Assembly: GCF_032362555.1 (NCBI RefSeq)
Contig: NC_083522.1
Location: 7,170,001-7,234,000 of the forward strand
Direction of reading: 5' to 3'
DNA from: Amyelois transitella
Lineage: Eukaryota; Arthropoda; Insecta; Lepidoptera; Pyralidae
Length of the DNA: 64,000 bases
Shown here: in pieces, positions 2,058 to 40,168 of the stretch
Position numbering within the stretch: the stretch's first letter is position 1
Layout of the letters: the number at the start of each line of letters is the position of its first letter
Notes under the pieces: model-generated
The model's input: only the letters and a program-made list of their open reading frames with translations
Databases searched by the model: none
What the model was told of the DNA's origin: nothing
Translations under genes and position numbers: made by a program

Positions 2058-2134
2058 ACGACTACAATCGAGTGGTGCTAGATACCGTAGACCGGGAGCC
2101 TGACTCCGATTATATTAATGCTTCCTATATAGAT
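2058..2134 (+). CDS. PTP exon a: D1 DYINASYID segment
   Basis: Acceptor ttcacag and donor GTGAGT flank 77 bases. The translation ends [10 protein letters not shown], a conserved PTP strand. The exon enters with two bases of a split codon and leaves in phase 0. It is the first PTP exon visible; upstream exons were not found. Confidence 0.93.
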
Positions 2135-5100
2135 GTGAGTATGAAATAAAGTTTATTTTTGTCTGGTTAAAAAGAGTAACGCTGGAAGGAAATGACAACG
2201 AAAAGGATGAATGTACCTTGAACGAATCGGGGACTTCCACACATACAGATCAGGAAAAATACGTGCTCAGGCACGGCCAAGATTAGTCTTGACCCAAAAT
2301 AATGCTCTTTTATATAAAAATCTTCTATTTATCTAAATTTATTAAAAAGGAGACACGGACTTAGATAATGACGCACAGCCCAGTAAGTCAGACCATCTGA
2401 CCTGTAGGGATTTCTAGAAATTTCCGCTGGAGAGACGAAACAGGAAATAAATTCTTCTTTCATTCAATGAAATGAAATTCTCCGCGGGACTTAAGTTTGG
2501 AAAACAATGTCGATGTTTTCTATTTAATTCCTAGACAAAGTAGTAGGATGAAAAGACTCAGTAACATGAACTCTGTGATTTGATTAAAAACTGATTTCAG
2601 TTCACATTTCAGTGAAATAAAATATATTTGTATATGAATTTTTGAAAGTATAAATATCTATTTCTTCGATATGTGTATGTTTTTCTGGTTTCTGTTTGTA
2701 CGTACTAACATATACTCACGTCAATATCCCTTGCGGGGTAGACAGAGTCAACAGTCTCGGAAAGAATGATAGGCTACGCTTAGCTGTATGGTTATGATGA
2801 AATTGAGATTCAGATAGACTGAAAGGGCACGGTGAGTTATATAGTTCAATGATGGAATGGCCCAAAAGAAGAAGAGAAAAAGCGAAAAAGAAAACGAAAA
2901 GAATCCAAGTTATAAGCCTTTAGACGCAAGAAATGGCGTGGTCCTGAACTAATGTGCCGGGAACCACACGGCTTCTGTTCGATTCTTCCTCATTCTTATC
3001 GTTCTTTGATGTTATTGGAGTCTTAGATGTTCACCTACTTTATTACGTTTCTTTTTTGACTCATTATCCTTGAGACACCATTTTCGAACTACATATATTT
3101 GTGTGATTCCTCCTTTTATATTTATTTACCTCCACTATGTACTATAATTGTAGGCCACTAAAGCAACCTAACCCAGGATTTTTTTCATAACTGGACGCCG
3201 CCGTCCTTTATAACGTCATGACTTGCGATAAGAGGGATTGACCCTTGTCATCTCAGAAAGTATAAGTATGCTCTTGGGCCGGCATTGTTGGGCACCAATC
3301 CGATTGAATGTTTTTGCAAATATTTTACTTACATTGCATTGATGCAATGACCAGGATGGAGGGAAGATTGTTTCTAATATTAATCCTCTTTACGAGTAAA
3401 AGCCTTTTTAAAGCGTGTGAGTGCATAGATATCGCTGGAACTGGCAAATATTAATCATCATTATTATTCAGAGTAAAAACTAATTTTTTTATAACAAACT
3501 CTCTTTGTGACTCTTTCTCTCTCACAGCGTATGTGTGAGTAGGTTGATTAAGCAGTGCCCATAAAAAAGTTAATTATGCAGGCGAGAGAGGCTTTTTTGG
3601 CCATTTTTTTGCTTACAACTCTTTGCCGCTTGATTTTGCCAATATTGGCATTCTTTGACAAGGGTTATATGATCAGTTTGGCGTCAGTTCAGTCCATCTG
3701 CTTGGCCCGGCTAAAATGTTTTCGCTTTTGTTGGGACCAAAGAGAGAGTCGGCAACCCTGATTAGGATTGATTACACGAAGATGAACAGAATATTTAATT
3801 AAAATTATATACACACCGGTGTATATCATGTGGGAAGATAAAGCAATTACAGTTAAGAAATACCTAATTATTACTCTTTCCGTGATCATTTTTAATTGTT
3901 AGCAAGAACCATTTAAAAAATCTTCAAGACTTGGAGCGTCGGTGGTCGAATTGGTAAGGTTCCATGTGAAAATGTGTAATACTCAGAAAGGCACAGGTTC
4001 GAATCCCATCTCGGTAACAAAGTCTATTTTAGAAGTTATGTAGTGCTCTAACGATGAGAGAAAACACCGTGAGGAGACCAGCACATTCAGGCAACTGGAT
4101 GTGTAACCATGATCGATCCAATACGGGTTAGGGTCCCCTGTAAAGGTTTTTTTTATTTTATTTGTTTCAGCTATATGTTTATTTGTCACTAGCTGTAAAG
4201 GTTAGAAAGCTCAGATGGAAGTCACATCAACAAGTAAAGGCATATCCCAGGCTCCTCTCCAGAGTGGTGAGGATGCAACTGAGACTAAATCCAGGAGGAC
4301 TAAAGCAGTAATCCAAGCCTGCGTTGCTCTATAGATCTCAGTTTCGTAACGTCCCAAATTGAATCTAGTAATGTAATTTTTTTCATTGTTTCCATGTGCA
4401 GTTATTTATAACATAATGTTTTGTTCGTAGAGTGTACTAAAACCAAACGCGTACATAGTGACGCAGGGGCCAACCGAGGACACAGTGGTGTGTTTCTGGA
4501 GAATGATCTGGCAGGAGAGGGCGGCGGCCATCGTCATGCTCACCAAGACCTTCGACTTCATCAAAGTGAGTCACCATTTTTTGTTACCTACATATTCGCC
4601 TTGGTGTATGTATATACATGGCTTAATTTTTATTCGTTATCAAGAGATTCCCTAGAAATGGATGGAGTGTCAGAATTAGAGGACACTAAATTTTGTAAAG
4701 TCAAGTAGTGCGCCTTTAAAGAAAGCAAACTCGAAAGCATCTTTTGTAATCGACTTCTTTAATTAATTTTGATGCCCATTATTTTATGTTTAATTATTAA
4801 ATTAAGTCCATTAGCCAAAAAATAAATAATTGTTGGCCATATTATTAACAATGCACAACGATTTTTTTTAAACTGTATATTAATCACATGAGGACAGTCA
4901 GTGTAGCTTGGAAACTGTGTAGATGTCACTGCTACGAAACTCGTAGCACAGCTACGCATGGCGTCTACGACTCTGTACTTGCTACGCGTTTTCTACCTCC
5001 GAAATTTTTTTATATAAACGTGCCCTAATATTAAATTCTAAGCGTTTGACTTAAATTTTATGCGTTTTTTATACGCAGTATATATTTCAGTGAAATTAAG

Positions 5101-8100
5101 GAACGAGCAGTATTTTCTAACTCTGAAGTATCCGAAAATAAATTTATTAGCTATTGGGTCTTAAAAAACAGCTTTCGAAAATCCGATTCCTCGGGACAGA
5201 AAAGTTAAACATACACAAAGACAGAAACAACACAAATTTTGATGGAACAAAAACAGGATTAAATCTTATTAAGTAAACTCTTTGTTTTGTTATTGACTTG
5301 TATAATCTGCCAAAAATTATTTTATTTCGAAGATAAATTGTAAATGTTGCGTTTGAAAGGTTGATCTAAAAATAAGATGTTGTTTTTCCAGCTTTCTGTC
5401 AGAAAACATTTTTACCAACCAAGAAATCATTATTTCTGGAGCCACCTTCCTTATTTCTTTAGATATAGACCATAAGTTAACTCAGAGCCAATTGCTAACA
5501 TATTCTCTCTGTAAATTTTTATTTCTTTTCTTTTATTTTATCATAATCTAAATTTACCTGATTTATTTTAGTGATAAGGTGGCCTATTGCTGCAATGTTT
5601 TTACATAGTGGTTAGTATAACATGTCAAACAGTAGACTTTACGCGGATGAGATGATGATGACGATACTTAAAAAGTGAACCAAAAAGTGGGCCGTTATAA
5701 AAATTTTCACACTGTCCGTGACATCGTAACGACAAAATTTATCATAATCTCCCAAGTTTATTCCCGGTTGTACACTTAGCGGTAGCGCTCGAGAATGGGC
5801 TTTAAAAACAAATTATCACAAGGGAATTTCGGATTCCATTAGACGCAATTCGGTCCCATCACGATTATCCTGCAAGTTTGTCTCAATATCGCGGGCCATT
5901 TTCTAACAAATTGACTAGTACGCCTACACCAGTAGGGTGATCGAATTTCGCCCTAATGGAATAAAGAAAATGGGTGTGCGTGACATACAATATCTTGGTG
6001 GAGATCGGTTTCCCAATGATTTATTTTTACTTCACACCTCGTCACAGATTAATACAAACCTATATTATTTCTCCAAACGTCGGTGGTGGTTGCTATAATT
6101 AAGTTTTTGACTCCAAGATTTGATATAGACCTATTTTTATTATGTTTACATCATTCTTTTATTCGTTCAGGAAAAGTTGTACGAGTGGTACGCATAGCTC
6201 AATTCGCTGGATTTATAATTTGGCAAGTTTGTTCCTTACCAGGTCTAGTGGAATTCCTGCGGGAATTTCTTAAATTCCCCCGAGTGGGGATATTCACGGG
6301 ATTTATTATTTCACTTAAGTGAAGCTTGCTTGAATAAAAGAAACTTATGTGACCAACACATGCAATATATTTCAAACTGTTTTCACAATTTCAGCTAGAG
6401 CGCTCGTGGCTTCACTAAACCCCTCTGAGGTTAAACGTCTGGGTTAGAGTAACTTTAAGCCGCGTCGCTCTCGAATTCACGCGCCTCTGAAATATTCAGA
6501 GAAACGACGAACAAAACAACAGACAAATCCTTCACTCTCTTTCTGGAACCAGTGAAGAGTTTAACATTTCACATTTATGTTCAGAGTTACGCCTTCTGAC
6601 GAATCGTATGCTTTGTATTAGTTCATTATTTGGGATTGCATTATATTTTTTTTTGCATTATTATTAATTTAGAGATTTAACAGATTTATTAATAGTCACA
6701 TATCACATATTTATCCTTCATGGAATAGTCAGAACTTGTCATAAGATTAAGGCCCTGTTAAACTGAATGCCTTAATGATGGAATCGAAATTCAGAGTTAG
6801 TGACAACATCGCCTAAAAGGATAGAAGAAGAAGTTACCAATAGATTGAAAACTTGTGATATAAATATATTTGGAACTAAATATATTTATATCACAAGTTT
6901 TGGAAGCACAGGAATCTGGAAATTTCAAAGGAACAAATATTAGACTAAAGATTTATCATGGTGGTCGGAGATATAAAATACCTTAAAGAGTAAGGCAATT
7001 TTTTTTCAATATTTCACTGGTTAAAATTTATATTGTTGTTTTTGAAATAAATAAATATGAATATAGAAGCACTGCGCAAAACTTAGTTCTTAACAAAATG
7101 TGGGTAAAAATAGTACAGAATAAAATATATTTCCCATCGATTAATTTGAGCAATGCGTTGTAAAAGGATCTAAACATCAAAGAAGATGTGTTCCCTCAAT
7201 CCGTTTAAGATGTGCGCTTGAACGAGCTCGTACCTTCAAGGTTTGAAGTTAAGTCAATACATGTACAAGTACCTACTTATCTACATACACAAGGGTGGTT
7301 TAAAAGCTTAGTAAACATTTTCTGTTGGAGATTTTGGTTCACATTGTGCCCACTAAGAGAATTTATTTTGCGAATTAACTGTCAATTGGAACTATCCCTG
7401 TATCTGTCTTCCCAGATACATTCAACTTGGGGATTATCAAGGCAAGAGTGAATTGGCATTGAGTTTGCGTGCACCACCTTAGTTAGGTCTTATCTTGCTT
7501 ACCACCAGGCGGCTTTATCGCATTATGCAATTTCGTCCAGGCAACAACACACAACAAGAACATTTCGTGAGAGAGAATTTGCTTGCGGAGAGGTTTATAT
7601 TTTATTTTCGTCGTTCATTGTATTTATAGCTTCAAAACATGAGACAGTGACATCGATATCTTTTAAGAGGATACAAAGCAATATCGCATCCTCTGTTTCC
7701 TATAATGATGCACGGTGTGAAAGAGGACGAGTTACCCAGTGGAGCGGTGAGCAAAAATTTGCGAATATTTTTCGCTCTATTTGGCGGCGTTAGAGCCGCA
7801 AATAGCGAGATTCCCGAAGAACAACCCATGTGTTTACAATCAAGCTTTCCATCCGTTCACAAGGAACACATTGATAAATAGATTTTTCTTTATTTACACG
7901 TATAATATATTCGATACACTGCGCTGCCTCGAAATGCCCGAATATTTGTATAGGCTAATGTATATTCAAAGTTTCTCGTATATAATGTATATAATTCAAA
8001 TAAAAGCCCGTGTATAATTAAAATAAAAATACCCCAAATTAAATTACAATTATCTATTCAATGGGTTTGATCGGAAATAAATAAAATATGAGAATCATTA

Positions 8101-11100
8101 CGTGGTTCAAACTAATTTTATTGTAACAACTCTGCAATCTCATGTCCGAGTAAACGTGGCTTTCTTAGGCCTGCGAATATTGGCTCTTTAAACTTGTATG
8201 TACGTGGAATGTGTGTAATTTTAATAAAGATTAAGTATTTATTGTAGGGTTGGTTCTGTTCACTTTTAATTTGGGATCTGCGCTGCTCGTCCAATTTTCT
8301 TTACATTATGAAACGCCGCATGTTCCTAACTAGAATATGCGATGGGGCGATTTTTAATAAATCTAAAATGGCGGAGTTGCTTAATATTAGTTCGTAGTTC
8401 CCGTCGTAAAAATAAGTTTCTTATTTAGTCTTCATTGCAGGAATTAAGAGAGGAGAGGATTGTGAGATCATTAAGTGATTCGTCCCTTTTATATGGGAAC
8501 AAATCACTTAAATTGTGTTATCCAAAAGCACGTTATTGTAATCAGATGTAGTTTGACCTACGGTGATGAAGCATTTTTAATAAATTATTAAGGCAAAAGC
8601 GTAATATTGTTCCAATTTGTTCAGATGCCAGTGGACATGCACGTTGAAGTCAGGTTGAGGTTATTTATATTATCTTGAGGGTATAACAAACCTCATCACC
8701 GCCCCAGGACGTGATATTATATGTAGTCTTGCATTTGTTACTAGTGACAACATTTACGAAATGCCTTTTGGTAACTGGTTCAAACCCTTTGGTTAGATTT
8801 CCCTGCAAATGCTGCGGAGGTCAACCGGGAATCGCTTCGTGAAAAAAATCTGACTAACTCTATGATCATGGTCAAATTGCGCACCTCGGGATCCTCTCCT
8901 GAGTGATGAGGATGTAACCGGGACTCAAGCCAGGAGGAAGAAGACTAAGTTTATGAACAGACGTATTTATTTGATGATTTTTTTAAAGGTAATGTGCGTG
9001 CAGTACTGGCCTCCAAATAAGGAGAAGGACGAGACTTACGGCGACATCAGCGTCGGCATCGTGCAAGAGGAGGAACTGGCTAATTTCCACATACGCACCT
9101 TCAGGCTTTACAAGACTGAGAAAGATGTAAGTATTCAATAATGAAAAAGAAGAATAAGAAGTAAAATCAATTGTTGACTTACCCTTATTTGAGATCTTTT
9201 TCTATATATAACCCCTAAAAATAAAATCTTAATACCCCTAATTTTTACTTTAATACCGTTGCTAATGGTGTTGTATTGAAGAAGAAGGTATTTCATTTAT
9301 TTCATTTAAATCGAAATCATAATTAGATTAAGTTCCATGATATCTTGATAAGTACAGAATTTTAATATTTTTATCAAGTTTTAAAATTGAAAGATAAATT
9401 TACATACATACATACATATCGTCACGTCTATATCCCTTGCGGGGTAGACAGAGCCAACAATCTTGAAAAGACTGAATGGCCACATTCAGCTATTTGGCTT
9501 AATGATAGAATTGAGATTCAAATAGTGACAGGTTGCTAGCCCATCGCCTAAAAAAGAATCCCAAGTTTGTAAGCCTATCCCTAAGTCGCCTTTTACGACA
9601 TCCATGAGATAGAGATGGAGTGGTCCTATTCTTTTTTGTATTGGTGCCGGGAACCACACGGCACGGGAGAAAGAATTAAAGATAAATTTAATTAAACAAA
9701 ACTTAAGGTACGTTTGTACAAATAATTACAATGGTGGTCTTCATTTTTTAAACTGTTTTACCTAAACATGATGCTATACCTTAGAAGATACCGGAATAAC
9801 CTGACAATGGTGACGTTTTTCCAGGTGGTGGTGGAAGAACGTTTCATCCTACAGTTCCACTACACGCAATGGCACTCTCACACTTGTCCGTTCAGCAACG
9901 CTTTATTGGAGTTCCGCAGGCGGGTCCGCGCCGTCGTCGGCCGACGATTGGCCACCAATCCCGCCGCTGGACCTATGGTAGTTCATTGCAAGTAAGGACA
10001 TATCAAAACTATATATAATTTTCTGATCATTCTTTTACTTTTCCCACTTTATGTTTTGGGTCTAATACCTATATGTTAGTTTTTATATGTAAGTATAGAA
10101 TACCGATTTCGATAGTTTTCTCTGCTAAATTATGTCATTTGCCATCATTTGACACTCTTAATTCTGCCTTTGGCAAAAAAAAATTTGAATTTTATACAAT
10201 ATTTATTCCCCTTCGTCAAAATCATTATGGGGAATCTTCCCATATTTTTTTAACTGATCTAGGAATGTTTCTTACTAAACTTTAAAACCAGAACCGGTTA
10301 TCAAATACCTTATCCTAATTTTCCTCTTTTAGTGACGGAGGAGGTAGATCCGGAGTCTACTTAGCAATTGATGCAAATCTCGAATTAGCAGAAGAAGAAG
10401 ACTGCTTTGATGTTTATGGCTATTTGAAGAAGCTGCGACAATCTAGAAAAGGCCTTATAGAAAACGAGGTATTGGAACATAAATTTGTTTCAGAACTAAT
10501 TTTCATCATATCTTAGAAACTCTTATATATATCCGTTCTTGGCTAGAGTGGAGAATTTTTACAAATTCTCTTCTCAAAGTTGCAGATATCCTTAAAGTTT
10601 TACATATACATAGAACTTGGCATAGACAGTAATTATTCCGATTTTGATCTCATAATTTAATCATATAAAAAGGCTGAGAATACCACTGCAACACAAAGAT
10701 GATACAGAGAGAGCGTCATTAATCAAACGTCTTTCAAACCAACAGGAACAATACAAATTCGTGTACGACACATTAGAGGAGCATGTCGTCTGCGGCGTGT
10801 CCTGGTTTCCTGTGTCGGAACTGTCACAAAGACTGAAGCAGAAGTCCCAAAGAGACCCGGTGTCGAAGCTGAATGAGTACCAGAAGGAGTACCAGCAGAT
10901 CTGCAAGCAGACGCCGAGGTTCACAATAGGAGACTGCGCTGGGGGTCACAGGGGAGACAATAGAGAGAAGAATAGGGACGTTCTCGTGGTGCCACGTAAG
11001 TTTAGAAAGTTCACTGACAATATTGAAGCTAATATTGAATTAAGGATGAATGAAGCTAATATTGAATTAAGGATGAATGAAGCTAATATTGATAAAAGAG

Positions 11101-14043
11101 GCATTGGTTAATTAAGCATTAGCTCTGAGTGATAGTTTGATTTTTTGAGGTAAAGAGAGCAGATTTTCAATAAACCTAACATAAGAATTATATAATTCAT
11201 TCTTACTAATTTGTTATATTAGTTGCATCAAGTAAGTTAACAGGTTTTTAGAACAATTGTTTCTTTACAGCTGACAACTTTCGTCCGTACCTAACATCAT
11301 TCCAAGGAAACAGTTTTACGGACTACATCAATGCCGTATTTGTTGATGTAAGTTGAGTCCTTAAGTTTTTGGTTATTTCTTCCCTACCAGGTCTATTTTT
11401 AATAAGTATTTGTTTCTAGGGTTACACCAAACCACGCGAATATATAGTCACGGAATGGCCTCTTATAATGACCCAAGGAGAATTCTGGTCTTTAGTTTAC
11501 GACTACGAATGTGCTGCAGTAGTAGTACTATGTGTTCCTCCTAAAAACTCAGTAAGTATTTTACAATACCTGCCTAAAATATTATACCATTTAAAGTAAT
11601 AAATAAGATTTATAACTAACTACATTTTTCTAATACCAATATCAATTATGCTAGATTTCAAATTCACCTTTGATTACTTTGGAAGTATTATTTACATTAA
11701 ATATTTATTTGTCACAAATTTCATTGAACACTCCCTCAATATCACTCTCTCTCTTTCTTTTTCAGTTGGTAGATTTTTATTACATGGTTAAAAAATTAAA
11801 TTATTATAATTTGGTTTTAACTTACAGCAACAATTTCCTCCTTTCTGGCCTGAAGGGCGCCACTCCAAGAAGTATGGCCCAGTGTTCACGATAGACCACG
11901 TCTCTCATAACCACTACACTAATATCAAGACCTGGATATTTAGGATTAACAAGAAGGTTTGTATTATAATAGTGATTGTATTATTAAGTTTCCATAAGTA
12001 TATCAAATTTAGTTTCTTTAAAAGAGAACTGTTTTTCAACACCCAAATGCAAACTCATGTCAGAACATCATCATCTGAGCGTGTTTGCACCCTTAGCGAT
12101 GTTGCTCAGAGCTCAGCAACCATCACAAGCGAACATAGGTGATTTGACGAGCCTACTGAATTTTTTAAGCAATCTTTTTCCTAGAGCTAGACCAAACCCT
12201 ATCCTGTGAATGATTTATAGATAGAAAATTGAACTTAAAATATTGCGATCTATATTCTTAAACCTGAACTTTCAATAGCAGACCTAAGGCCCCAGGAATA
12301 ACAGATAATAGGATAACTGAACAACACGCCAGTATAAATGAACATTTCAATACTCTCCCATAGATCGTGTCCCTAACAGAGTTGATGGCCGGTGTCAAAG
12401 CTCCACCGAAGACGGTACAGCTGTTCCAACTGACGTGCTGGCCCATGGGCCACAAGGTGCCGTCGTCGACCAACTCGCTGGTGGAACTCATGAACATGGT
12501 GGAGCGTTGGCGGCAACGCACCGACTATGGGCCAGTTTGTGTGGTTTCGCCGTAAGTATTTCTGCCACAAACTGTATTTTCCTCCTGTCCTCCTTCTCTT
12601 TGGAGAGGAGCATGGGGTGTGTCCTTTGATCATGATCCTGGGTTGCTTAAAGCAGGTTTTTACACAAAGCGTCTCCCGTATGACTTCCACGACCATGGGA
12701 ACCTAACCCATATTGATAAGATAAAAGCTGCACTTTATGAATGTGCCTTTAGCAGTTGCGATTTACGACATCCGAAAGAGACGGTTCTATTCTTTATATG
12801 GCCTAATGTCTAACAGAAGCGAACTTTCTGCAGGTAGTTCAGATATATGCAGATCGTAATCTAAATTACATTAAATTGATTAATACAATTTCTGGATAAT
12901 ATCTTCATTCAGTTTTACTATACCAAGGTTATGATAAAACATTGTATAGGAGTATAGAACGTGGTTTGCCAAATAATAACCACCTGAAAAATACATCATC
13001 CATAAAAATTTTAAATTCCATTTTAAAATAAAACCCAAATGTCTATTTTCTGTGTACTGATTTGAATATGAATTTGCTTTTAATTATATAACTAAAAACG
13101 GCAGCAGTAGTTATACAACAGTTATATAAACGGGTTACAAGTTCCCGAAGCAACAACCCTCAAAGTCAAATTAGAGAAAATTTCATACGGAATTACGTGG
13201 AACAAATTAACTTCGTTTTGATTACAACGTTATCTCTTGTCGCTTTAGCTGCTGTAATCCGGGCTAACGAGAAGCCTTTGAAGTTGGTACAAATATCAAT
13301 GGATTTTAATGTAGTTTTAATGTCGGTGTGGAATAGTTGCCCATATGAAAAAATAAATTTTTAGATAGGTATTTAAGTAACTGACTCGTAAAGGTTTATG
13401 TTGACATCAGCAATTTTACTAAGTTCTGGGTACAGTAATTCATTATCTTAACTTGTTTATTGGCTCGAGGAATAATGCCCTAGCATTGAGACAAGAAGTT
13501 AAATTTTTTAGGAAAAAGATAAGCAAAAGCTATTCGAATAAATTAAATATACTTATTAATAATCATGAAAACTTAACTGTGCGACCGAGCTTAGCTCGGT
13601 GTTTTGTAAACTGTTTCAGTAGATATCAGAAAAACTAGTTTTAAGTAAAAAAAAAAAAGTTTTGATACCTAAATTCCATGAAAGCAATTCAAGTGTTCGA
13701 TAAGATCAAAATTTTTTTACCTTCTTTATTCCTTCTTATCTCAGAGATGGCCGCAGTCGTGCCGGCGTGTACTGTGCCGCCAACGCCTGTATCGAGCAAG
13801 TCATCAAACACGGAGAAGTTGACGTTTTCCAAGCCGTCAAGACCGTTCGCCGGCATCGACCACAACTAGTCGAGAATATGGTGAGAATCATTTAAATCCG
13901 AATATATTTATTGTAATAATAAAGTAAAAACATTATCATTAATTTAATTTCTTTTGATGCAGACCGAATACAAATACTGCTATGACCTCGTGCTCCACTA
14001 CGTGCTGCACTATTTAAATAAAGATATGAACGAAAAGAAGTGA
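2058..14043 (+). CDS. Receptor tyrosine phosphatase, R2B (kappa/mu-like) class, cytoplasmic D1 and D2 domains; 5' partial
   Basis: Twelve exons join in consistent phase: 2058-2134, 4431-4565, 8989-9126, 9825-9991, 10333-10468, 10746-10995, 11271-11347, 11420-11551, 11828-11956, 12364-12551, 13745-13880 and 13963-14043. D1 runs from DYINASYID through VTQGP and YWPP to HCNDGGGRSG. D2 runs from DYINAVFVD through FWPE and WPM to an inert signature loop. The linker and D2 ([39 protein letters not shown]) resemble vertebrate PTPRK/PTPRM more than LAR or PTPRG, from memory of those families. The ectodomain, membrane segment and start of D1 (KNRY loop) lie upstream of the window. Catalytic residues are missing in both domains: WPD is WHS in D1, and the HC of D2 is VS. 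The protein probably works as a pseudophosphatase in cell-contact signalling, or has weak D1 activity. It ends at TGA 14041-14043, but the frame continues open (see the 14044-15894 entry). Confidence 0.93.
2708..2972 (-). repeat. GCCGTGTGG-family SINE, diverged copy
   Basis: It carries the internal block CCTTGCGGGGTAGACAGAG at its left and ends with GTGCCGGGAACCACACGGC at its right. The sense strand of this family begins GCCGTGTGG, so this copy is on the minus strand. It lies in a phosphatase intron. Confidence 0.75.
3935..4165 (+). repeat. tRNA-derived SINE with B box
   Basis: A Pol III B box GGTTCGAATCCC lies at 3997-4008, with an A-box-like GGTGGTCGAATTGGT about 50 bp upstream. A non-tRNA body follows and ends in a T-rich tract. 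Acceptor-stem pairing expected of a real tRNA is absent. Confidence 0.6.
4431..4565 (+). CDS. PTP exon b: D1 VTQGP / FWRMIW segment
   Basis: This 135-base phase 0 exon encodes A-Y-I-V-T-Q-G-P followed by C-F-W-R-M-I-W-Q-E and I-V-M-L-T-K. These are hallmark PTP motifs. Acceptor ttcgtag and donor GTGAGT flank it. Confidence 0.95.
6848..6901. repeat. Perfect inverted repeat, 24-bp arms, 6-nt loop
   Basis: Left arm 6848-6871 and right arm 6878-6901 are exact reverse complements around loop GGAACT. It sits in the large phosphatase intron between exons b and c. It is probably a young palindrome or a hairpin RNA source. Confidence 0.85.
8761..8945 (+). repeat. Dispersed repeat with GAGGATGTAACCGGGACT motif
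   Basis: The block GTGATGAGGATGTAACCGGGACT...CCAGGAGGAAGAAG just before exon c recurs in diverged form near 4253-4305, 34890-34930 and 62220. It is likely the 3' part of another SINE family. It lies only ~45 bp upstream of the exon at 8989. Confidence 0.5.
8989..9126 (+). CDS. PTP exon c: D1 QYWP segment
   Basis: The 138-base phase 0 exon encodes V-M-C-V-Q-Y-W-P-P, then Y-G-D-I and the I-R-T-F strand typical of PTP domains. Donor GTAAGT follows at 9127. Confidence 0.93.
9403..9677 (-). repeat. GCCGTGTGG-family SINE with 13-bp target-site duplication
   Basis: The (CATA)n tail lies at the left and CCACACGGC at the right. AAAGATAAATTTA flanks the element at 9390-9402 and 9678-9690. About 13 extra bases lie between the usual end and the right duplication. 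It is in the intron between exons c and d. Confidence 0.85.
9825..9991 (+). CDS. PTP exon d: D1 WPD-loop position (W-H-S) and VVHC
   Basis: The segment [12 protein letters not shown] stands where H-F-T-x-W-P-D-H-G-V-P is expected, so the general-acid Asp is absent. The exon ends inside the codon after the catalytic Cys (V-V-H-C), in phase 2, at donor GTAAGG. Confidence 0.95.
10333..10468 (+). CDS. PTP exon e: D1 P-loop remainder
   Basis: Joined to the preceding exon this gives H-C-N-D-G-G-G-R-S-G. Cys and Arg of the C-x5-R loop are therefore kept. The Q-loop position reads I-E-N-E rather than V-Q-T-E. Confidence 0.95.
10746..10995 (+). CDS. PTP exon f: end of D1, inter-domain linker, start of D2
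   Basis: The 250-base exon encodes E-Q-Y-K-F-V-Y-D and the linker. It then encodes N-R-E-K-N-R-D, the D2 counterpart of the KNRY loop. It leaves in phase 1 at GTAAGT. Confidence 0.94.
11024..11094 (+). repeat. 27-bp tandem repeat, about 2.6 units, in a phosphatase intron
   Basis: The unit GAAGCTAATATTGAATTAAGGATGAAT-like sequence repeats with 27-bp spacing, 30 bp after the donor of exon f. The frame happens to remain open through it, but the conserved exon-f donor and next acceptor show that it is intronic. Confidence 0.85.
11271..11347 (+). CDS. PTP exon g: D2 DYINAVFVD segment
   Basis: This 77-base exon has the same length and phase as the D1 exon at 2058-2134 and encodes the equivalent strand. 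That is a clear trace of the ancestral duplication of the phosphatase domain. Confidence 0.93.
11420..11551 (+). CDS. PTP exon h: D2 VTEWPL / FWSLVYD segment
   Basis: The 132-base phase 0 exon encodes Y-I-V-T-E-W-P-L where active domains have V-T-Q-x-P. F-W-S-L-V-Y-D-Y follows. It lies 72 bp after the preceding exon. Confidence 0.93.
11828..11956 (+). CDS. PTP exon i: D2 FWPE segment
   Basis: The 129-base exon encodes P-P-F-W-P-E-G and K-Y-G-P-V-F, the D2 counterpart of the Q-Y-W-P region. Acceptor ttacag and donor GTTTGT flank it. Confidence 0.92.
12364..12551 (+). CDS. PTP exon j: D2 WPM loop and degenerate P-loop start
   Basis: L-T-C-W-P-M-G-H stands at the WPD loop; vertebrate R2B D2 domains also have W-P-M there. 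The exon ends V-C-V-V-S-P(split), putting Val-Ser where active domains have His-Cys. Confidence 0.94.
12594..12830 (+). repeat. Dispersed repeat fragment in phosphatase intron
   Basis: The wording GGAGAGGAGCATGGGGTGTGTCC...GATCATGATCCTGGGTT recurs near 31910-31985, 32625-32670 and 57918-58070. It appears to belong to one dispersed family. No coding potential is supported. Confidence 0.5.
13745..13880 (+). CDS. PTP exon k: D2 P-loop remainder
   Basis: Joined to exon j this gives [13 protein letters not shown]. The Arg is kept but the Cys is replaced by Ser. Next come [10 protein letters not shown] and L-V-E-N-M. Confidence 0.94.
13963..14043 (+). CDS. PTP exon l: last D2 helix and TGA
   Basis: The exon encodes 26 residues, including [16 protein letters not shown], and reaches TGA at 14041-14043. 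The sequence AA|GTGAGAG across the stop also makes a reasonable splice donor at 14040. Confidence 0.93.
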   Translation, partial: TEYKYCYDLVLHYVLHYLNKDMNEKK

Positions 14044-15894
14044 GAGTGCGAACTCAAGGACGAACTCTGGTTCATCGAGTTCGGGCGCGGCGCCGCTCTG
14101 CCCACCACGCCGGAGGAGACCAGCCCATCAGCTAAGCGCGCCCCGCAGCCCGCACGCCCGTCCCGTCCACGCCGTGGTCTGTCGCTGGACCGCTTGCTGC
14201 CTTTAGCGCGACCGCCCATACCGCATGCTGCCACCGTTGAAGCTCAACCGCAGCGCCCGCGCCGCGATCGTCCTCCATTACGCCGTTCCATTCGACTCGA
14301 AGATGAGGATGGAGCGGCTGAGGAACGACGACGCGTCTTCCATCACGGGCCACGCGCTCCTTCCTTCGACGAGGGAGACGCTAGTGACGGCCACGAAGAG
14401 TGCGACTGCGTGCGGACATCGCTAGAGCGCTCTGGGCCATCGACAGACACGCCCCTCGAGGACGAATACGAACCGGAGTTCGCCATCTCACCACCGGCCG
14501 CCGAACCGACCCCGCCCCCGCGGACGCTTCGCGGCGTTTCTTCTGATCGGGTTCTGGCCGATCGGCACGACGGACCGTTTGTACCACGCGGTCCAGCCCG
14601 AGCTCATTCACAAGGTGTGTTTGAACGGCGCTTGCCGAAAATTTACAAGTTTGGCTTAATGGATAAGTCGAAAAGGGCGAGTTCGAGTGCTCTTTATGAA
14701 CGAACAGACCGGTCTCCGACTGAAGCTTTTTATAATGCGACTGGATCGACACGTCTTAGTTCCCAAGAGTTATTTGAAAAATTTTGTTCGGAAGAGTTTA
14801 CGTCACTTTACGGACGGGAAGACTACCGTCGACGACGACCTCCGCATTCTAAGTCAACAGGAAGTAGTGGATCTGACGTTCGACACGAAAGGACATGCTG
14901 TCGCCGACCTCCTTGTGGTTCACAACCAGCTTTAACCCGTCGGCACGTATGTCAAGTACCTCGCTCGGACCGCTCCACAGACTCCGATGAAATATCACCT
15001 CGTCGTACAGCCCCTCATTCATTGCCTCTCGATCCTGATGCGGTACATGCTGACGATTGTTCACGATCAGCTCCATTATTAAGTCCAGATCGATTCGAAG
15101 CTCGTTTTACTTTCGATATCTCAGAGCGTAGTGAAGTAACTTCCAATCGTGATGAAACGCCGTCTGATGCAACAGAAACACGAAATTTGACTCTTTATGA
15201 GGAGCCACATTCCGATAGAACAAGTCTCTGTGAGTTGTATGATGCCGCATTCACATCTCAACGACCGTCGTTCAGACGAGATAGTTCACGTCGTCGTGGT
15301 GGAGGACCTTTCGATTTGAGTGCTCTAGACTTCCGCGCTATTGATGACGAAAGTCCTCACGCTAGTCGCCGCACATCACAGCGTAGTGTTGATGAAACTT
15401 TACGCCAAAACTCAGAATCACGAAGTTGGGCGTCAGATTCGGTATTCGCTACCCCTGAGCGCCGGCTACGCGAAATATCATCACCAACATCTGTAGATAC
15501 CAAACGATCAGCGGGCAACGTGACCGAATCCCGTGCTGATTCGGCCGCAGCCGATTCCACTCTTGCTGATACAACCGTTATCGAAGAGGAAGTGCCGAGC
15601 GTTATCGAGCGTACGGAATATGTACTAGCCCTTCGCCTCGGACGAATCGATCTAGATGACGACACATTATCGGAAAGAGCTGTATCAACACCCATCGCTG
15701 ACGGAGCGAGGATGTCAAGTCGTCCTTCAATGCACAAGTTAGAGCCTATCGAACCGGAGCGTTTATGCGGTGGTGCTAGTAGGGGTGTCGAGAGTGAAGG
15801 CGACGCTAGCAGCGTGCGGTCGGGCATGTCTGGGCGGCGACGGCGCGGGGCGTCGGAGCCGCCGCGGCGGTCGGCGCGCTGCTTCCCGCTCTGA
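14044..15894 (+). CDS. In-frame 616-codon C-terminal extension of the receptor phosphatase, beyond a TGA
   Basis: The frame continues from the last D2 codon across TGA 14041 and stays open until TGA 15892-15894. The translation is low-complexity and disordered in character, rich in Arg, Ser, Asp, Glu, Thr and Pro. It has clusters such as K-I-Y-K-F-G-L-M-D-K-S-K-R (around 14635-14676). It also has short related motifs: S-A-L-Y-E-R-T, S-S-Q-E-L-F-E-K-F, T-S-L-Y-G-R, L-T-L-Y-E-E and S-L-C-E-L-Y-D. The first in-frame ATG is near 14659, so an independent upstream-initiated protein is unlikely. The tail is probably made by readthrough of the TGA or by removing an intron at 14040-14123 (84 nt), which keeps frame but has a weak pyrimidine tract. 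An ORF this long by chance is very improbable in this genome. Its function is unknown; the tyrosines and charged stretches suggest a docking scaffold. Confidence 0.8.
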   Translation, partial: ECELKDELWFIEFGRGAALPTTPEETSPSAKRAPQPARPSRPRRGLSLDRLLPLARPPIPHAATVEAQPQRPRRDRPPLRRSIRLEDEDGAAEERRRVFHHGPRAPSFDEGDASDGHEECDCVRTSLERSGPSTDTPLEDEYEPEFAISPPAAEPTPPPRTLRGVSSDRVLADRHDGPFVPRGPARAHSQGVFERRLPKIYKFGLMDKSKRASSSALYERTDRSPTEAFYNATGSTRLSSQELFEKFCSEEFTSLYGREDYRRRRPPHSKSTGSSGSDVRHERTCCRRPPCGSQPALTRRHVCQVPRSDRSTDSDEISPRRTAPHSLPLDPDAVHADDCSRSAPLLSPDRFEARFTFDISERSEVTSNRDETPSDATETRNLTLYEEPHSDRTSLCELYDAAFTSQRPSFRRDSSRRRGGGPFDLSALDFRAIDDESPHASRRTSQRSVDETLRQNSESRSWASDSVFATPERRLREISSPTSVDTKRSAGNVTESRADSAAADSTLADTTVIEEEVPSVIERTEYVLALRLGRIDLDDDTLSERAVSTPIADGARMSSRPSMHKLEPIEPERLCGGASRGVESEGDASSVRSGMSGRRRRGASEPPRRSARCFPL

Positions 15895-18800
15895 CTGCGG
15901 ACGGCGGCGTCGGTCCCGCGCCGCGCCGCAGCCTCGCCCTCCCGTGCCTTTCCGCCAGCTCTGTGCCGTCTTCGCCTCTTGGCCTTATCGAGCCCGCGCC
16001 ATTCCATTGCGCGCTTTGTCCCCAATAAGTCCAACATTGTACTCGCTACGTAACTTCAAGCCTCCGATGTAAGCCACCAATTTAACTTTGCACTTATTAA
16101 ATCCGTAAAATTGTAACTCTAAGAAATAGGTTAGACACTATCTAATATTAAATTATACATGAGGTAAGGATATAAAAAGCGAAAATTTAATACATTACAT
16201 CGCAGTTCCGTGAAGTATGAAATCGGCTTTTCCTAGATGGCTTCATTCGGAGGCAAAACTATTAGGGTCGTGCCATATGTAGCTTAGCGGGACCGCGGAT
16301 CCCTTCCTTACCTTAGTCTCGTCGTTCACCTACTGCCAAATTTTCTAAAAATGTAAATTTAAATAATTTAGTATATGGCCGTCTATTCGGCATTAGATAG
16401 GCAGTGCCTAGACTAATCGCTACGTGCGTAGAGCGTAGATTCTAAATCTCGTAGATAGAAATTTGATCCCGAGTTCGCCACAGGCGCTCGGTCGCAGTCC
16501 ACGACTGACACAGGGTCAACTTTAGCTAATAAAAAACGTTCTATATTACCGTTGGTACACGCAGTACTGTGCACGCGTCAATATGGAACCAAATCGCTAT
16601 AAGATCTACGCGATGTATGAAGCCTTATGTAGAAAATTTATTCCACAATGAGTGAGAATTTAAACTATTTAAGAAAGTAATTGGAGCCCATTCTTTTGAC
16701 TGTGTTGCGAAAGATTCTAGGAGACTTATGAATCAATTGTAACCTCAAAATTTTTGTCTCAAATAATTTAAATTTATGGTAAAAAATTACACTCACTGTG
16801 GTATGGGTGTAGACATTAGGCAATAGTATAACTAGCTAGTATTATGAAAAAAATCATTTGAGAAGTTTTATGTGATTTTGTAATGCCGAAAAGCAATTAG
16901 GTGTAAACCATTATTTACTTTTTATTTATGGAGGGTCAATTACTCCGAAGTTTTGCAGACTGAGCGTGAAAATATAAAAATATTCCCTTCGAACCTTCTT
17001 CCAAAGTATAACTTAAGTTTTACGTTAAAATTTTGATGTCCTGAGTCTTGGTGTTAGTGTTTGTAGTTTATTCCAATTGTTGTAGCATGACATTTAAGAG
17101 AAGCTTTAGATGTGATGCGATCGGGAAAATCTGCAAATAAAATATTTACATAAAGATTTTTCGACCTTGTGGTAATGATGACTGACATTCGTTCGATATG
17201 TCACTTAGGCGTTTTAAAAATCCCCGGTCGAAGTACAACATCTAAAACTACCCTTATCTTTAAATAATATTTGTAGCTTGTATTTGGCAAAATAAAAAAA
17301 TATAATAAGTTTGTATTGAGAATGTGCCAATTTTTCATTGATTTCAGATTTTAAACTATGTTTATAATATTTAGATGTTACATATATATGTTTATTACGA
17401 GCTTGGAGCTCTTGTTTAGTAATTAAATAAGGATCAATTTCCAATTAATTAATTATTTAATGAAACATAAGCAGTTGATTTTATAAATGTGTAATTTTAC
17501 GCTTCGATAAATTAATATATATTTTACTAAATAATGTTTATGATATATTTATTTTAGATAAATGTAGAATTGTGCTGTATGTATTGCGTTAAGATATAGT
17601 TTCTGTAGCTAGCTTAATGAATAATGCGTCCGTAAACATTTAATGGATTGATTTGTATATATTTCTTTGCCATCATCGTGTCGTCTATGAGATCCCGTCA
17701 ATCACATTAAATATTCAACTTTCACACATATTCTAATTCAAAAAGTAATTTTTTATGTATAATCAGTCTATTAAGTTTAATTTTTCATAACAGGAAAAAC
17801 AGACTGAAATTACGTACCAACTCACAGCCGAAACAAGTTGATTCTTTAATTTTTTTTTCTCAGTAATATAACTATATTACTTTTTTTTTGTTTTGTTATA
17901 AAACGTTTAAAAATCCTATCTTTCGTCGTTAGTTGGAATTTTATGTCAGTTTCTGATCTTTTTTATTAAAAATAAAACAAATTAGTCAATTTCGTAATAA
18001 ATAAATAATTATTAATAGTTATGTATATAAAATTTAAATATTGACTTTTAAATTTTGGCAAAAAACGGTATTCCTTGATGACGTTATATTATGAAACATA
18101 CAAATTAATTGTGATCTTAATTCATCATTGTAATAAATTACCTAATGATTTTATCATATAGGAGAAAAACCAGCTAAATGAATAGTCGACACGCTTACAC
18201 AAACTAAGTACACTTCGCATAGTATTTATATTGTAATAAGTTATGTTTTAATATTTATATTTTAACGAATAATAACGCACAACCTAAAGCCAGACCTAAT
18301 GTTTATTGTAATATAGCATATACCAATAGGAAAAACATACAATTTTATGTAAGCACCTTACCCTCGACTGCAAAGATTTTGATAGAAAATTTTACGATAA
18401 TATGCTTTTTAAACAGCGGCAAGTTTAGTATATACGAGAACACAAGTGTAATGCCACTTGATGTGAAATAATTAAATGCTGAATTATCTTTGCACTTTTA
18501 TAATACAATACTCCAATTATTTGTACTAACTGCTGTTTTTAAAAAGGCAATTTGCTATCTCAACAAATAAGATAGAAATATTATCGATCTTTCAAATATA
18601 CCAGCAAAATTCCATCATCCCAGCAGCATGCCTTACAAAAAGTCAAAAATTATTTGACCTTTTCAAGTCAAGAGAAAAGCGCTTTGTATTATTTTCTGAT
18701 TCAGATATGATCATAAATTTCTACACAAAAACAATTACGTATAAGTGAAAAAGAGAATATAATCATGTACTGTGCCAATTTCGTAGTTAATAAAAAATCG

Positions 18801-21173: not shown

Positions 21174-21689
21174 TTACCTCCCTAGACTGGGCAGTTTAGG
21201 GGCTTCGGGCAATTTCGGGGTGTCGGGCAGTTTTGGGGTATCGGGCACTTTTGGCGTATCAGGCGCCTTGAGGTCTCCTGGCATGTCCAGACTGACAGCG
21301 ACCGACGCCAACATCAGCAGACACACGAGAAACTGTAACATATAATTTATTTTTAAATCCAATTTAAACATAGAATTTTCTTTCACCAGCAACGTACCCG
21401 GTATTTTTTTCGGTTTAAATAAATTAAGATCGACAACAACAAAAGCAAGTCTTATGTTTAATATATTAAAGTCGTAAATACGTAAAATTTTAAATCATAT
21501 ACATATGTTCGAAATTTTCCACGTTATTAAATGAAAACTTTAAAATGTGTCGATTACAATAATATGTAAAGGAATTATACATGTAAAGGCTGGCATACAC
21601 AATGTGTTTTCTTTACTAGCAGAACATCAAATAAATAAATTGTTAAAATAAAAAAAAATTAAATAATACGTTACCACAACCCGCGACAT
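21174..21689 (-). CDS. Small secreted proline-rich repeat peptide (57 aa), two exons
   Basis: On the minus strand, exon 1 (21689-21675) encodes M-S-R-V-V and ends at donor GTAACG. Exon 2 (21332-21174) follows acceptor gttacag in phase 0 and runs to TAA. The first ~19 residues form a signal peptide with core F-L-V-C-L-L-M-L-A-S-V-A-V. The mature part starts near L-D-M-P-G-D and has five [D/E]-[T/A]-P-K-[V/L]-P-like units. It has no Cys and ends P-S-L-G-R. A terminal Gly-Arg could allow Arg trimming and C-terminal amidation. A longer ATG-initiated reading through exon 2 (from 21392) lacks the N-terminal signal and ignores the good acceptor, so the spliced form is preferred. I do not recognise the family. 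A short immune, salivary or cuticular peptide is possible but not shown. Confidence 0.7.
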
Positions 21690-35213: not shown

Positions 35214-36849
35214 ACCAGTTGGCAATAAATTACGTGAAATATAATTGCATACTGTTCCAATTGTCACTGATTAACGATCCCGTCTGATAATTTGCAGGCT
35301 ACTATTGCGTATTATATATACCTTAGCTAACTTAAATGTGAGGTAAGTTAAAATTATAAATCATAAATAATAATAATTGAATCATTTACAACATCTTATC
35401 AAAGTGAAATGGGTGTTTTAAAGGGATTTTAACCGACTACCTTTAGTTTAGAGGCGAAACATTATACAAATAAGTCAATCATAAAAAAAATATGAGAACT
35501 ATCCACTATGCCAAGAGTCTGTCGTATAAATCATAATCTAAAAAAGGAAATCCTGTAAACATTCCATGCAATTCGTTCTACACGTAAAAATTTTGTATAT
35601 CTCATAAAAATTTCATGCACTACTCTCGCACTCAAAGTCTACATTCCAAGTGATATATGAGTTTGTATCTATACATCTTTTGCTTACGAATTTACTTTTG
35701 CGCTTGTTTCGACTTCATAAATCTCTGCAGTTACTTTATTTTCTGTTGATGCAACAACGGCAATAGCCCGCACGGGGTAAACAAAGCCAACCGACGAGAA
35801 AAGAAGCCGTTTCATTAAGAGCCAGATAGCGACAGGTAACTAACCCAATACCTAAATAAAAACGCCTTTAAAGACTGTTTATCGACAGCGCCATCTAATT
35901 ATTTTCTGTGAACATATTAAGAATGGACACGCATCGAAATGTATTGATTGCGTTGTAGTTCCACCGATTTGCACTAGATGTCATGGTTATGATTTTACCG
36001 ATATGCACTTTTTTTATACTCTGTGTATTTCCGATTCCGATCCGATGTAAAAAAATATTCTGAAATAAACATGCAGACTACGAAGCCACGCTTCTTTTAT
36101 TTTCTATATCTTTATAAACCTATAAATCCATGACATTGCTTGGCATTTCTTCTGATTGTGTTTGTCTTTTTATGTTTCAGATGTTATAAATTCTATTGAT
36201 CAATTTCGTAACTTCGTGCCTTTTCAAACCATGACATTGGCATGAACATCGGAAATCCGGTGGAAGCCATTAATGTAGAAAAGAATGAAAGAAAAGTCTT
36301 TCCCTTGTTTGACTTTTACCATCTGCTGGGAAAGAGAAGCAACTAGCACGCACAGTCTTTTTTCATCTCTAACAAACCAGTATGATACATACAACTTAAA
36401 AATATTTGAGAATAGGTGGAATGACAAATTGATATGTAAAAAATGGAAAATGTCTGATGTCTGTAAAAATGTGACATACCGCATCAATGTGCATTATATT
36501 TATATTTTCTTAATTCCTAGGTGTCTTATTTTATACCCTTTCATTTGATCGTGCAAGTACTTTCCCAATTAACCATAGTAGATGTGGACTATTTTTTTTC
36601 TTAGACACAACTTAATTATGTTCTTCTCAACGTAATTAGTGATTCTATCGAATCTTCTCAAACTACATAAAAGCCGGCTTTCTGTCAGTATAAACGGAGC
36701 AATTACTTAATTGCTGTTTCGCTAATGAAGAGAAACTAATGACATAGTAACACTAATGCTTGCGATGCTTAAGCCTCGTTCATATTGGGCGAACTTGTAA
36801 TGATTGATATTTTGGGAGCCTTATTTACAACTTTATCCTTTTCATTCAT

Positions 36850-36934
36850 TCAGTCATTCATATAATCACGTCTATATCCTTTGCGGGATAGACAGACTCA
36901 GCAGTCTTGAGAGACTAACAGGCCATATTCAGAT
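36850..36934 (-). repeat. GCCGTGTGG-family SINE 3' fragment (repeated at 43290-43374)
   Basis: Only the tail-proximal part remains: TCACGTCTATATCC, GCGGGATAGACAGACTCAGC and GAGACTAACAGGCC. It belongs to the duplicated unit and is truncated in both copies. Confidence 0.7.
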
Positions 36935-37485
36935 TTATCCTTTTCATTTTCGATAAAAGAGCAAATATATATATTATTATTAAGATTATTATCTCGAATA
37001 AAGAGATATCTCTTCTATTTGTGCAATTGTTAAATTAAGTTGTTATGAAATAAAATAGACAGTCTTCTTCCTTCTAGCGTTTCTCCCGGTTACATCATCA
37101 CTCACCCTGGAGCGGAACATCGAGCACTTTTTGACCTGGATCTTGGAATAGGTGCGTCAATTTTTTACACACAGATCTTATCTGACCTCCTTTGCATGGG
37201 CAACTAAGCCATTATTGGAATATCGTTACACATTCAATTCCCTGAATGTGCAGTCTTCCTTAAATAGCTATTCATTTACTCAAAATGACTCAAACAGAAA
37301 AGAAACTCTAAGCATTTGTATTAATTTAAACTTATTTGCAAAACAAATTTAAATGGTGCACTTTAAACCGTGGGCAGCTCTAATTGACCAAGTTTGTTTT
37401 CCAGAAATAAATAAAGTACCTAACTCTGTCCAAATCTGTCAATCCAGAAACTTCTGCGAAGTAATTTCCCCGATACAAATGTCAC

Positions 37486-39704
37486 TTAAAGTTCATCTTT
37501 TGGGAGTTTGTCGGCGAAAAAATCAGTTTGCAAGCGATCCCAAAACTCCATTCTTTGGAGTTCGGGAACATTGAGCAGTTTTAGTTTTCGACCTAGACTG
37601 AGAACTTGGGCTACTTTGTGTCGCTGAAGCGGTAACCACTCAAGATCACCTAAGACATCGTCTTCCTTGATCGGCGTTGGGTTGCTGAAACAAATTTATA
37701 TTGTATGTATTGCAATGTTATTGTTTAAATTATTTATATGATACAGAATAAAAACTTAAAAAAACGACAACAAAACACAAACCAGATGATTATTTCGATA
37801 ATTTAAAAATATAACAAGTTAGTTACACTTGATAGATAATCAAAAAGAAATCGTTACTTGAGTAAAAAGAAAAGATTATTTAACCATCTAATTTCCATAA
37901 CAATTTACTGTTCATTTGAATTAAATTTTACACCAAACAACCGCTATTCTGCAGTAAAGAATGAGAACCATTACCTACCCAAATTTAACGAAATTCGCCA
38001 ATAATCTCGCAATTTTCTTAATGAAGTGCCTTTCATCCGAGACGCCGGTGCTATTGTAAGCGTCGTTTACTGATTTGCACTTGAATAGGTAGCAGATTTC
38101 GTCCCCAGCTGTCGCCCCGCGCCAATCTAAACCCGGCACAGTAATGTTCCAAACGACATTCAACACTCCCTTAAAAGAAAATCTATACAGGTAAACATTG
38201 TCACTTGATCCCTCCGTATGGAGCCTCGCCTGACGAAGCAACGGATAAATCACTTGATCCGAGACGTATTTCGCATACCGCCTCAAGCTCCCCTCCCCTA
38301 TCGTGCCATTAACGAAATAAAAATCCATTATCCTTCGTCTTATCTCACGATACCTCTTCGAACCATATTCGTCCTTTGAGCCTTCGAACGGTAATACGTA
38401 TTGGAAGTTATAATTTAAATACTTCAAAAGCTGCCTATTCTTCTCAAACCCCTGCAATTTGTAAAGGGACTCCAAACTCGTATATCCCATCATTACCTCG
38501 ACGTTGTTATTAGCGAGTTTTCGTTTGTAAACTGATAAAGGAGTTTTATTCATAAAAAAGTTCCTTGTCCTCTCAACAGTAGGGCCGAAATTATTGATCA
38601 ACCTTTGAGCGTCTCTAACTTCCGTGCTATCAAACAGATCTCGTGATGCCAATAACAAAGTATCAACAAGAGTATTTGAAAGTAATTCATAAAGCCTCGT
38701 TCGATTCAATTTCTCGAATGGTCCGTAAAGATTCCGATATAATTTATTGGCGACATCGAAATTGTAATTTCGGTAATCTGCCGGGGATAACGCCGATCCA
38801 CCTTGTATGATAACTCTGGCGAATAAACCTTCTGCCGCGGGGGACAGTAACAAAGAGGCAACCAAAACGGCACTTTTCTCCGATCCAACTACTGTCACCT
38901 CGTTCGGATTTCCATTGAAATGGCTGATGTTATCTCTGATCCATTTCAGGGCTAGTAATATATCTTTGCCTCCCATATTGCCTTGGGCGAAATCGTCTTC
39001 AGTGTTTAGAAATCCGAGTATTGCCGTTCTGAATGAGACGGATACTACAATCAAACCTTCGTCTATGAGGAAATCTGGGCCATGATGAGTAGAATCTTCG
39101 TGCGTCCAAACTAAGACAGGCATATGTGTTTGTTTATCGGATATCGGCATGTGTATGGAGAGATGAAGGCAATCCTCTTCGAACTGACGCGCGCACGTTT
39201 TTCTATTTGCAGAGCTGTGGTCTGATGTGCCGTTAGTGCAGAGTTGTGTAGCTTTTGGTGGCTGGAAATTATATTTTTGCCTTGCATTCTTTTCAAGACT
39301 GTTGGCTCTGTCTTCCCCGTAACGGATAAAAACTTGATTTTTATATATGTATGTTAATATAATTTGTTTAAAAATAGAAAAAAGTAAAATAAAATGGTTA
39401 AGTATACTTAGTAGATATAAACTTTTGCCTTAAATTAAAATGTCATTTACAACAACAAAAAGTATTCATAATAAAAGAAGAAATCCATGAAATTAATAAG
39501 ATAAATATATACTTTTACCTTAAACCTCAACTCTCCTACGGGTGATACCCCATACGGTATATCCCAAAAACTTGCATACGATCTGTTGTCAAATATCGTG
39601 TTAAATTTTCTGCCAATAACTATACAGTTTCCAAGATTCACATGTATTTTATCACCACGTCCATAGCTGAATATTACGAACAAAATTATAGAACATGGAC
39701 ACAT
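37486..39704 (-). CDS. E1: ER-retained carboxylesterase-like protein without catalytic triad (copy 1)
   Basis: Minus-strand exons 39704-39519, 39261-37979 and 37684-37486 give about 555 residues. Residues 1-17 form a signal peptide. The esterase landmark Y-A-S-F-W-D-I-P-Y-G ends exon 1, and introns fall at the same two places as in the paralogues. The nucleophile elbow G-E-S-A-G is G-S-E-K-S (Glu ~190). The HGG oxyanion hole is T-H-E-D-S (~115-119), and the His position before G-D-E is Ala (~447). The acid Glu (~326) may remain. Several N-glycosylation sequons are present. The C-terminus is K-L-P-K-D-E-L, an ER-lumen retention signal. Exon 2 starts unusually short, lacking the W-x-G segment of the others. 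The gene is divergent from E2, with 669 bp between start codons. It is probably a luminal binding or chaperone-like protein rather than a hydrolase; that role is inferred. Confidence 0.9.
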
Positions 39705-39911
39705 AACTTGACTTTATAATAAAACCCAACTTTACGTTTTTAGAGTTTTGTTTCACTTTAGTTCTTTGCATTTGAGGAAATATTGCGAAATTAAAGATTC
39801 TGTATATGTATCAAGTTGATTCCACGTCATATTAAACAAATTAATAACCATGCAATGTTTCTTCAAACAAAGATTTTTATACAGTATATTATTTTTAAAC
39901 ATTAATATTTA

Positions 39912-40125
39912 GCCGTGTGGTTCGCGGCACATTAGAATAGGACCACTCTCTCTCTTTCCTATGATTGTCATAAAGAGCGACTAAGGGATAGGCTAATAAA
40001 ATTGGGATAACCTGTCACTATTTGATTCTCAATTCCATTGTTAACACACAGCTGAACGTGGCCTATCAGTCTTTTCAAGACTGTTAGCTCTGTCTACCCC
40101 GGAAAGGATTTAGACGTGACTATAA
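39912..40125 (+). repeat. GCCGTGTGG-family SINE in the E1/E2 divergent promoter (repeated at 46352-46565)
   Basis: The copy starts GCCGTGTGGTTCGCGGCAC and ends near TTTAGACGTGACTATAAG, with several deletions. It was inserted before the 6,440-bp duplication because both units carry it. Confidence 0.85.
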
Positions 40126-40168
40126 GAAGGTATGTTATTTTTAAAAATACAATAAAGACGTGAAAATA

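Follow-up and report, generated by a model that had tools for sequence, protein, structure and literature searches.

Candidate stop codon readthrough into a 616-codon second open reading frame of a tandem receptor phosphatase-like gene in Amyelois transitella

Readthrough in insects and the phosphatase locus of A. transitella

Programmed stop codon readthrough is known in insects from kel, hdc, Syn, oaf and dfr/vvl, and in Drosophila and Anopheles its candidates run into the hundreds. Here we describe a further candidate in a 64,000-nt stretch of the Amyelois transitella genome (contig NC_083522.1, positions 7,170,001 to 7,234,000, hereafter the window; the genome comprises 327 Mb in 33 contigs). 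On the forward strand of this window, the frame of a gene encoding a tandem receptor-type tyrosine phosphatase reaches a TGA at 14041-14043 and then stays open through a second open reading frame (ORF, 14044-15894) of 616 codons and its own stop, called the tail below. On balance we consider it probable that a short protein form does end at TGA 14041 and that some ribosomes continue past it, in frame, for the 616 codons.

Among known cases Drosophila Ptp10D, with its single phosphatase domain, comes closest. This receptor tyrosine phosphatase is reported to undergo programmed readthrough in the brain (PMC13170385, PMC8417969), and a predicted stem-loop after its stop raised readthrough in a reporter (PMC13170385). 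More broadly, one comparative survey describes readthrough as abundant in most insects tested, except in Tribolium and the honey bee, and estimates that over half of the functional extensions are shorter than 10 codons (PMC5100048). The present gene resembles insect readthrough genes in its UGA first stop, its long in-frame second ORF with coding bias, a probably disordered extension, a possible hairpin right after the stop and a long multi-exon structure. It differs from them in having G instead of C after the stop, in being known from sequence alone and in the length of its 616-codon extension. Unlike Ptp10D it carries two degenerate phosphatase domains, and it is most likely not a Ptp10D ortholog for this reason. 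It would be a further candidate, unusual both in the length of its extension and in a receptor that is probably dead. Neither this gene nor readthrough of a tandem receptor phosphatase was reported among the literature matches listed.

The joined 547-codon translation upstream of the first stop matches PF00102 (Y_phosphatase) in two stretches (E 1.3e-120), and residues 1-535 align to LAR and PTPRS. Like the LAR/PTPRS and PTPRA-type receptors, the gene has the Y_phosphatase tandem and a stop shortly past the aligned end of the second domain (D2): the TGA lies 12 residues beyond the last residue aligned to solved tandem receptor protein tyrosine phosphatases (RPTPs; residue 535 of 547, seven listed structures, e.g. 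1lar and 2fh7), which we take to be near the usual C-terminal end of RPTPs. Unlike in these receptors, the first domain (D1) keeps Cys and Arg in its HC-x5-R signature (HCNDGGGRSG) but has WHS at the site expected to read WPD, and in D2 the signature is VVSPDGRSRAG, with Ser replacing the catalytic Cys. If the Cys, Arg and WPD residues have the catalytic roles in D1 and D2 that we assume for them, WHS in D1 and Ser for Cys in D2 make it probable that both tandem domains are catalytically dead and that the product is a pseudophosphatase. An earlier note on this DNA had spoken of a receptor phosphatase. The two Y_phosphatase domains agree with that name, but each lacks catalytic residues, and the word receptor, with the membrane-bound protein that it would imply, comes from the tandem domain layout.

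An open and coding-like frame behind the first stop

The earlier note had also placed the TGA at 14041 and an uninterrupted frame behind it, and both coordinates and length proved accurate: 616 codons (14044 to 15891) follow in frame before the closing TGA at 15892-15894. Frame reading likewise bears out its statement that no in-frame ATG precedes 14659, the later ones being at 15712, 15730 and 15826. No stop-to-stop frame in the window is longer than the tail; those next in length have 484, 484, 470, 467 and 457 codons. Markov models of the tail contained a mean of 20.0 (order 1) and 19.6 (order 2) stops, and 0 of 2000 simulations remained open with either order; the first 205 codons taken alone, at 63-66% G+C, stayed open in 2.5% and 2.8% of the order-1 and order-2 simulations, respectively. 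In 49 other coding pieces of the same genome, from 21 of 30 phosphatase loci (no internal stops, own gene excluded) and 28 of 30 kinase loci, the frame past the next downstream stop was open for 0-57 codons, a figure to be read as genome background and not as true gene ends because many of these stops are probably intronic. For ten phosphatase pieces extending to the end of the domain, or almost so, 0-30 codons were open past the stop.

The frame also carries a coding-like signature. Codon-position chi-square amounts to 21.3 in 14044-14658 and 65.3 in 14659-15891, each exceeding all 500 simulations, with values of 1.9-3.1 in four 300-nt blocks of the 3' flank and 7.8 in one intron block (P 0.22). 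Sliding 300-nt windows gave values of 12.7-45.5 from 13963 up to a window start of 15523 and 1.4-5.4 afterwards, and codon position 1 has the highest share of G in all six full 300-nt tail blocks but the third; the short final piece is likewise an exception. Three codon tables (A+T3-rich, G+C3-rich and pooled) were trained on the 49 pieces; with all three of them, narrowly so with one, frame 0 is the best of the six frames in 14044-14658, and with two of three it is the best in 15559-15891. It is very likely that the tail is translated in the receptor frame, now or until recently. The earlier note went further in holding that the tail must be translated; the tail does look coding, but this wording is too strong, as the sequence would look no different after a recent nonsense change or with an error in the assembly.

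A 232-codon frame on the reverse strand (15357-16055) lies antisense to the tail end. It has no Pfam match and is probably a by-product of the codon make-up of the tail and its high G+C.

Readthrough and other routes into the tail

Readthrough of the UGA, followed here by G, had been proposed in the earlier note and is retained as the best route into the tail, given that the frame is open, the tail looks coding and the acceptor of the intron proposed beside it is poor. Some ribosomes would decode the UGA with a near-cognate tRNA and go on in frame, and this passage over UGA 14041 is the step that we infer. One mRNA with an unbroken last exon would then yield two proteins, namely a tandem, probably dead receptor phosphatase ending at 14043 and the same protein extended by a long disordered cytoplasmic tail rich in Arg, Ser, Pro and Glu. 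A hexamer scan found no AATAAA or ATTAAA starting between 14018 and 16095; the first ATTAAA stands at 16096 and the first AATAAA at 16528, at the end of a 3' flank of 15895-16533 on the forward strand. Since no such hexamer lies between the two stops, the tail sequence is probably present in the short-form mRNAs too, and together with the uninterrupted last exon this means that both products can come from a single mRNA.

RNA structure after the stop is seen in about 10% of readthrough candidates and is not a requirement. A 35-nt hairpin with a perfect 7-bp outer stem (14049-14083, forward strand, -11.7 kcal/mol) starts 5 nt past the TGA and spans +9 to +43; folded in a 211-nt context (13990-14200), six of its seven outer pairs form with a probability of ~0.86. 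Its placement is similar to that of the dfr readthrough element at +10 to +58 (PMC13170385). The hairpin may aid readthrough and counts as weak support for it. As to the stop itself, UGA proved leakier than the other stops in a fly reporter (PMC13170385) and leads among the conserved candidates of flies and mosquitoes, with 61-76% depending on the group (PMC5100048); a ribosome-profiling study attributes only 25% of its readthrough events to UGA (PMC3840789). As a separate observation, two copies of CGAACTC (14049-14055 and 14061-14067) lie close behind the stop. Either can pair with GAGTTCG at 14077-14083, which sets two alternative hairpins in competition.

A number of results weigh against readthrough into a coding tail. 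The base after TGA 14041-14043 is G, which departs from the leaky UGA-C context; C follows the stop in 49-63% of the fly and mosquito readthrough candidates, depending on the group (PMC5100048). Fold energy after the TGA is ordinary, and a stem as long as that of the hairpin arose in 39 of 2000 shuffles and at 10 of 582 codon starts within the tail. In the best fold after the stop, the hairpin is present when 50 or 60 nt are folded, is outcompeted at 70 nt and is absent at 80 nt. It also departs by one bulge base from a published stem-loop rule, to which 19% of shuffles conform (35% if the rule is relaxed). Within the tail, position bias is not significant in the first 300 nt taken alone (P 0.17) and is absent from the last 333 nt (P 0.54). 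The frame-0 log-odds from the codon tables are negative throughout, so the codon and residue make-up of the tail differs from that of the training genes. In 14659-15558, frame 0 ranks best with the A+T3-rich table only, and the G+C3-rich and pooled tables place other, closed frames above it. The codons of this part tend to end in A or T, which limits codon scoring here: third-position G+C is just 27-34% in the middle of the tail. Differences of this kind are found elsewhere in the genome too, with values of 0.25 to 1.00 in the training pieces and 0.32 to 0.76 in the exons of the phosphatase gene. Lastly, the only match in a search for relatives of the tail within its own genome was the tail itself, and none was found among 45 pattern matches in prokaryote genomes or among five in IMG/VR, where insect DNA is not expected.

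Codon usage was dropped as a stand-alone proof of coding on account of the negative frame-0 log-odds and the frames that win in 14659-15558.

The TGA might instead be spliced out, which we regard as unlikely. The earlier note had suggested an optional 84-nt intron (14040-14123, forward strand), and its donor holds up. In a splice model built on the 11 introns of the phosphatase gene, donor 14040 scores 8.2, within the 0.9-10.1 of the 11 real donors and among the top 34 of 3282 GTs in the window (real donors included), a rank that itself speaks against readthrough; two further GTs of the tail, 14615 and 14947, score as high. Moreover, a length of 84 nt keeps the frame, and real introns of 72 and 82 nt occur in the gene. 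The other end of the intron fares badly, however. Acceptor 14123 scores -8.7, lower than any of the 11 real ones (-6.5 to 8.7), and is 96th of the 104 AGs in 14060-15894; the 19 nt before its AG contain no T at all (real acceptors, 0.21-0.63), and the interval has a G+C of 0.65, as against 0.20-0.37 in the 11 real introns. This interval is therefore out as the main route on acceptor strength and composition. Exitrons are optional introns inside a coding exon, and 14040-14123 is like them in its length of 84 nt divisible by three, its usable donor and its high G+C, but unlike them in an acceptor among the worst AGs of the tail, which leaves it short of a credible donor-acceptor pair.

Stronger in-frame acceptors lie further in, at 15275 and 15782, and with donor 14040 either could give an additional isoform, yet as the way into the tail they would leave the position bias of the skipped part unexplained. 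The phase-0 acceptors 14115, 14253 and 14373 score 0.0, -0.8 and -0.4, more than three of the real acceptors (the weakest ones), and fit the upstream exon ending at 13880, which closes in phase 0; skipping the exon that begins at 13963, however, would remove the final D2 residues including the last helix. As the splice model comprises 11 introns, splicing is weakened by these results and no more. A separate pair, donor 14615 (8.2) and acceptor 14929 (5.8), would bound a 315-nt in-frame optional intron containing the ATG at 14659.

Three explanations dispense with both splicing and ordinary readthrough. The same picture would arise if a normally continuous long receptor had recently acquired a nonsense change, fixed or polymorphic, or had been misassembled, since one genome cannot separate this from readthrough and the coding bias of the tail would long persist; candidates resembling such changes were discarded by Jungreis et al. 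2016. Yet the stop falls only 12 residues past the aligned domain end, close to where RPTPs usually end, a random stop so early in a 628-residue extension would be expected in ~2% of cases by our own estimate, and no further stop follows in 616 codons, so we consider this explanation distinctly improbable. It is very unlikely that the tail is coded independently, from ATG 14659 or together with other exons upstream, and matches the receptor frame by accident. The strongest codon-position bias does begin near 14659, where G+C and third-position composition shift as well, but bias and best-frame scores reach into 14044-14658, a region without an in-frame ATG; the context of ATG 14659 (ttaATGg) is weak, and accidental agreement of frames would have a one-in-three chance. 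Least credible of all, to the point of being nearly negligible, is another kind of recoding, by selenocysteine or by A-to-I editing to UGG, to both of which a UGA is open. Rfam contains the selenocysteine insertion sequence (SECIS), but no Rfam match at E up to 1 was found in 13700-18500, where no dedicated SECIS search was made. Selenoproteins were apparently lost in the Lepidoptera examined in one study (PMC2500217). For editing, the A in question is preceded by G, which ADAR disfavours. Readthrough at TGA 14041 is the explanation that we prefer.

Gene structure, tail protein and neighbouring features

Up to the first stop, 12 exons were rebuilt on the forward strand (2058-14043), with GT-AG at every border between exons and a continuous frame of 547 codons; the exons before these are either beyond the window or escaped the reconstruction. 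The first exon found inside the window (2058-2134), bounded by GT-AG and kept in frame, holds part of D1, which continues, by exon model and Pfam match, in 4431-4565 and 8989-9126. The next exon, 9825-9991, carries the WHS and shares the split HCNDGGGRSG signature with 10333-10468 (both by exon model and alignment), and 10746-10995 ends D1 and adds the linker. D2 is spread over 11271-11347, 11420-11551, 11828-11956 and 12364-12551, which like the linker exon are placed by exon model and Pfam match, and over 13745-13880, in which alignment locates the Ser at the place of the catalytic Cys. The final D2 codons and the first stop, from frame reading and the exon model, occupy 13963-14043, and this exon runs on into the tail. 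All 11 introns have a G+C of 20-37%. A motif and ORF scan of the 50 kb upstream of the gene revealed no obvious additional exon, and fn3 had no match near the gene among the 150 of 234 candidates scored. Behind the linker exon, the exon frame stays open from the intron start to 11111 (10996-11111), and a perfect 27-base tandem repeat of 2.6 copies (11024-11092) carries it through; a longer alternative linker exon reaching 11111 is possible.

The tail protein is made up of 14.3% Arg, 12.8% Ser, 9.4% Pro and 9.1% Glu, has a grand average of hydropathy (GRAVY) of -0.97 and contains no strongly hydrophobic 19-residue stretch. Pfam and NCBIfam returned no match above cut-off for it. A single-sequence structure model has a mean predicted local distance difference test (pLDDT) score of 38, which fits disorder and equally a poor model; the sole stretch modelled as helical, tail residues 225-256 (14716-14811, forward strand), reaches a pLDDT of up to 63 in a 10-residue block. 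From these predictions the tail is probably disordered, and disorder is described as enriched in fly readthrough extensions (PMC4528330, PMC8417969). Compared with shuffled tails, RxxSxP occurs 4 times against 1.1 expected and PxxP 11 times against 5.4, uncorrected for the ten motifs tried, while the kinase-site motif R-x-x-S/T is not enriched in the tail. The tail may be pictured as a docking platform that would recruit partners or kinases. If both domains are dead, the main signalling output might even lie in the 616-residue tail, so that termination would act as an on/off control of cytoplasmic signalling, an idea that we put forward tentatively and hold to be rather doubtful.

Elsewhere in the window, 35684-42123 is repeated at 42124-48563 as a tandem duplication with a shift of 6440 bases and only 2 mismatches (36781 and 41044); it is either very recent or an assembly artefact. 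Among the esterase-like frames of the duplication, one of 484 codons is present identically at 37975-39429 and 44415-45869; the frame of a third gene is truncated near the junction. The esterase-like genes form a cluster on both strands (37975-56588), from which the two frames tested, 51909-53318 and 55185-56585, match PF00135. A short frame on the reverse strand (21174-21494) has a signal-peptide-like stretch (MLQFLVCLLMLASVAVSL) and PDTPKLP repeats; within it, Tandem Repeats Finder (TRF) delimits an 18-base repeat unit at 21189-21264.

If the proposed readthrough is true, a gene model ending at 14043 would miss 616 codons, a warning for annotation. The insect readthrough genes would then gain, beside Ptp10D, a long-tailed receptor with a pseudophosphatase tandem, which would hint at readthrough as a recurrent means by which insects set the tail length of receptor phosphatases.

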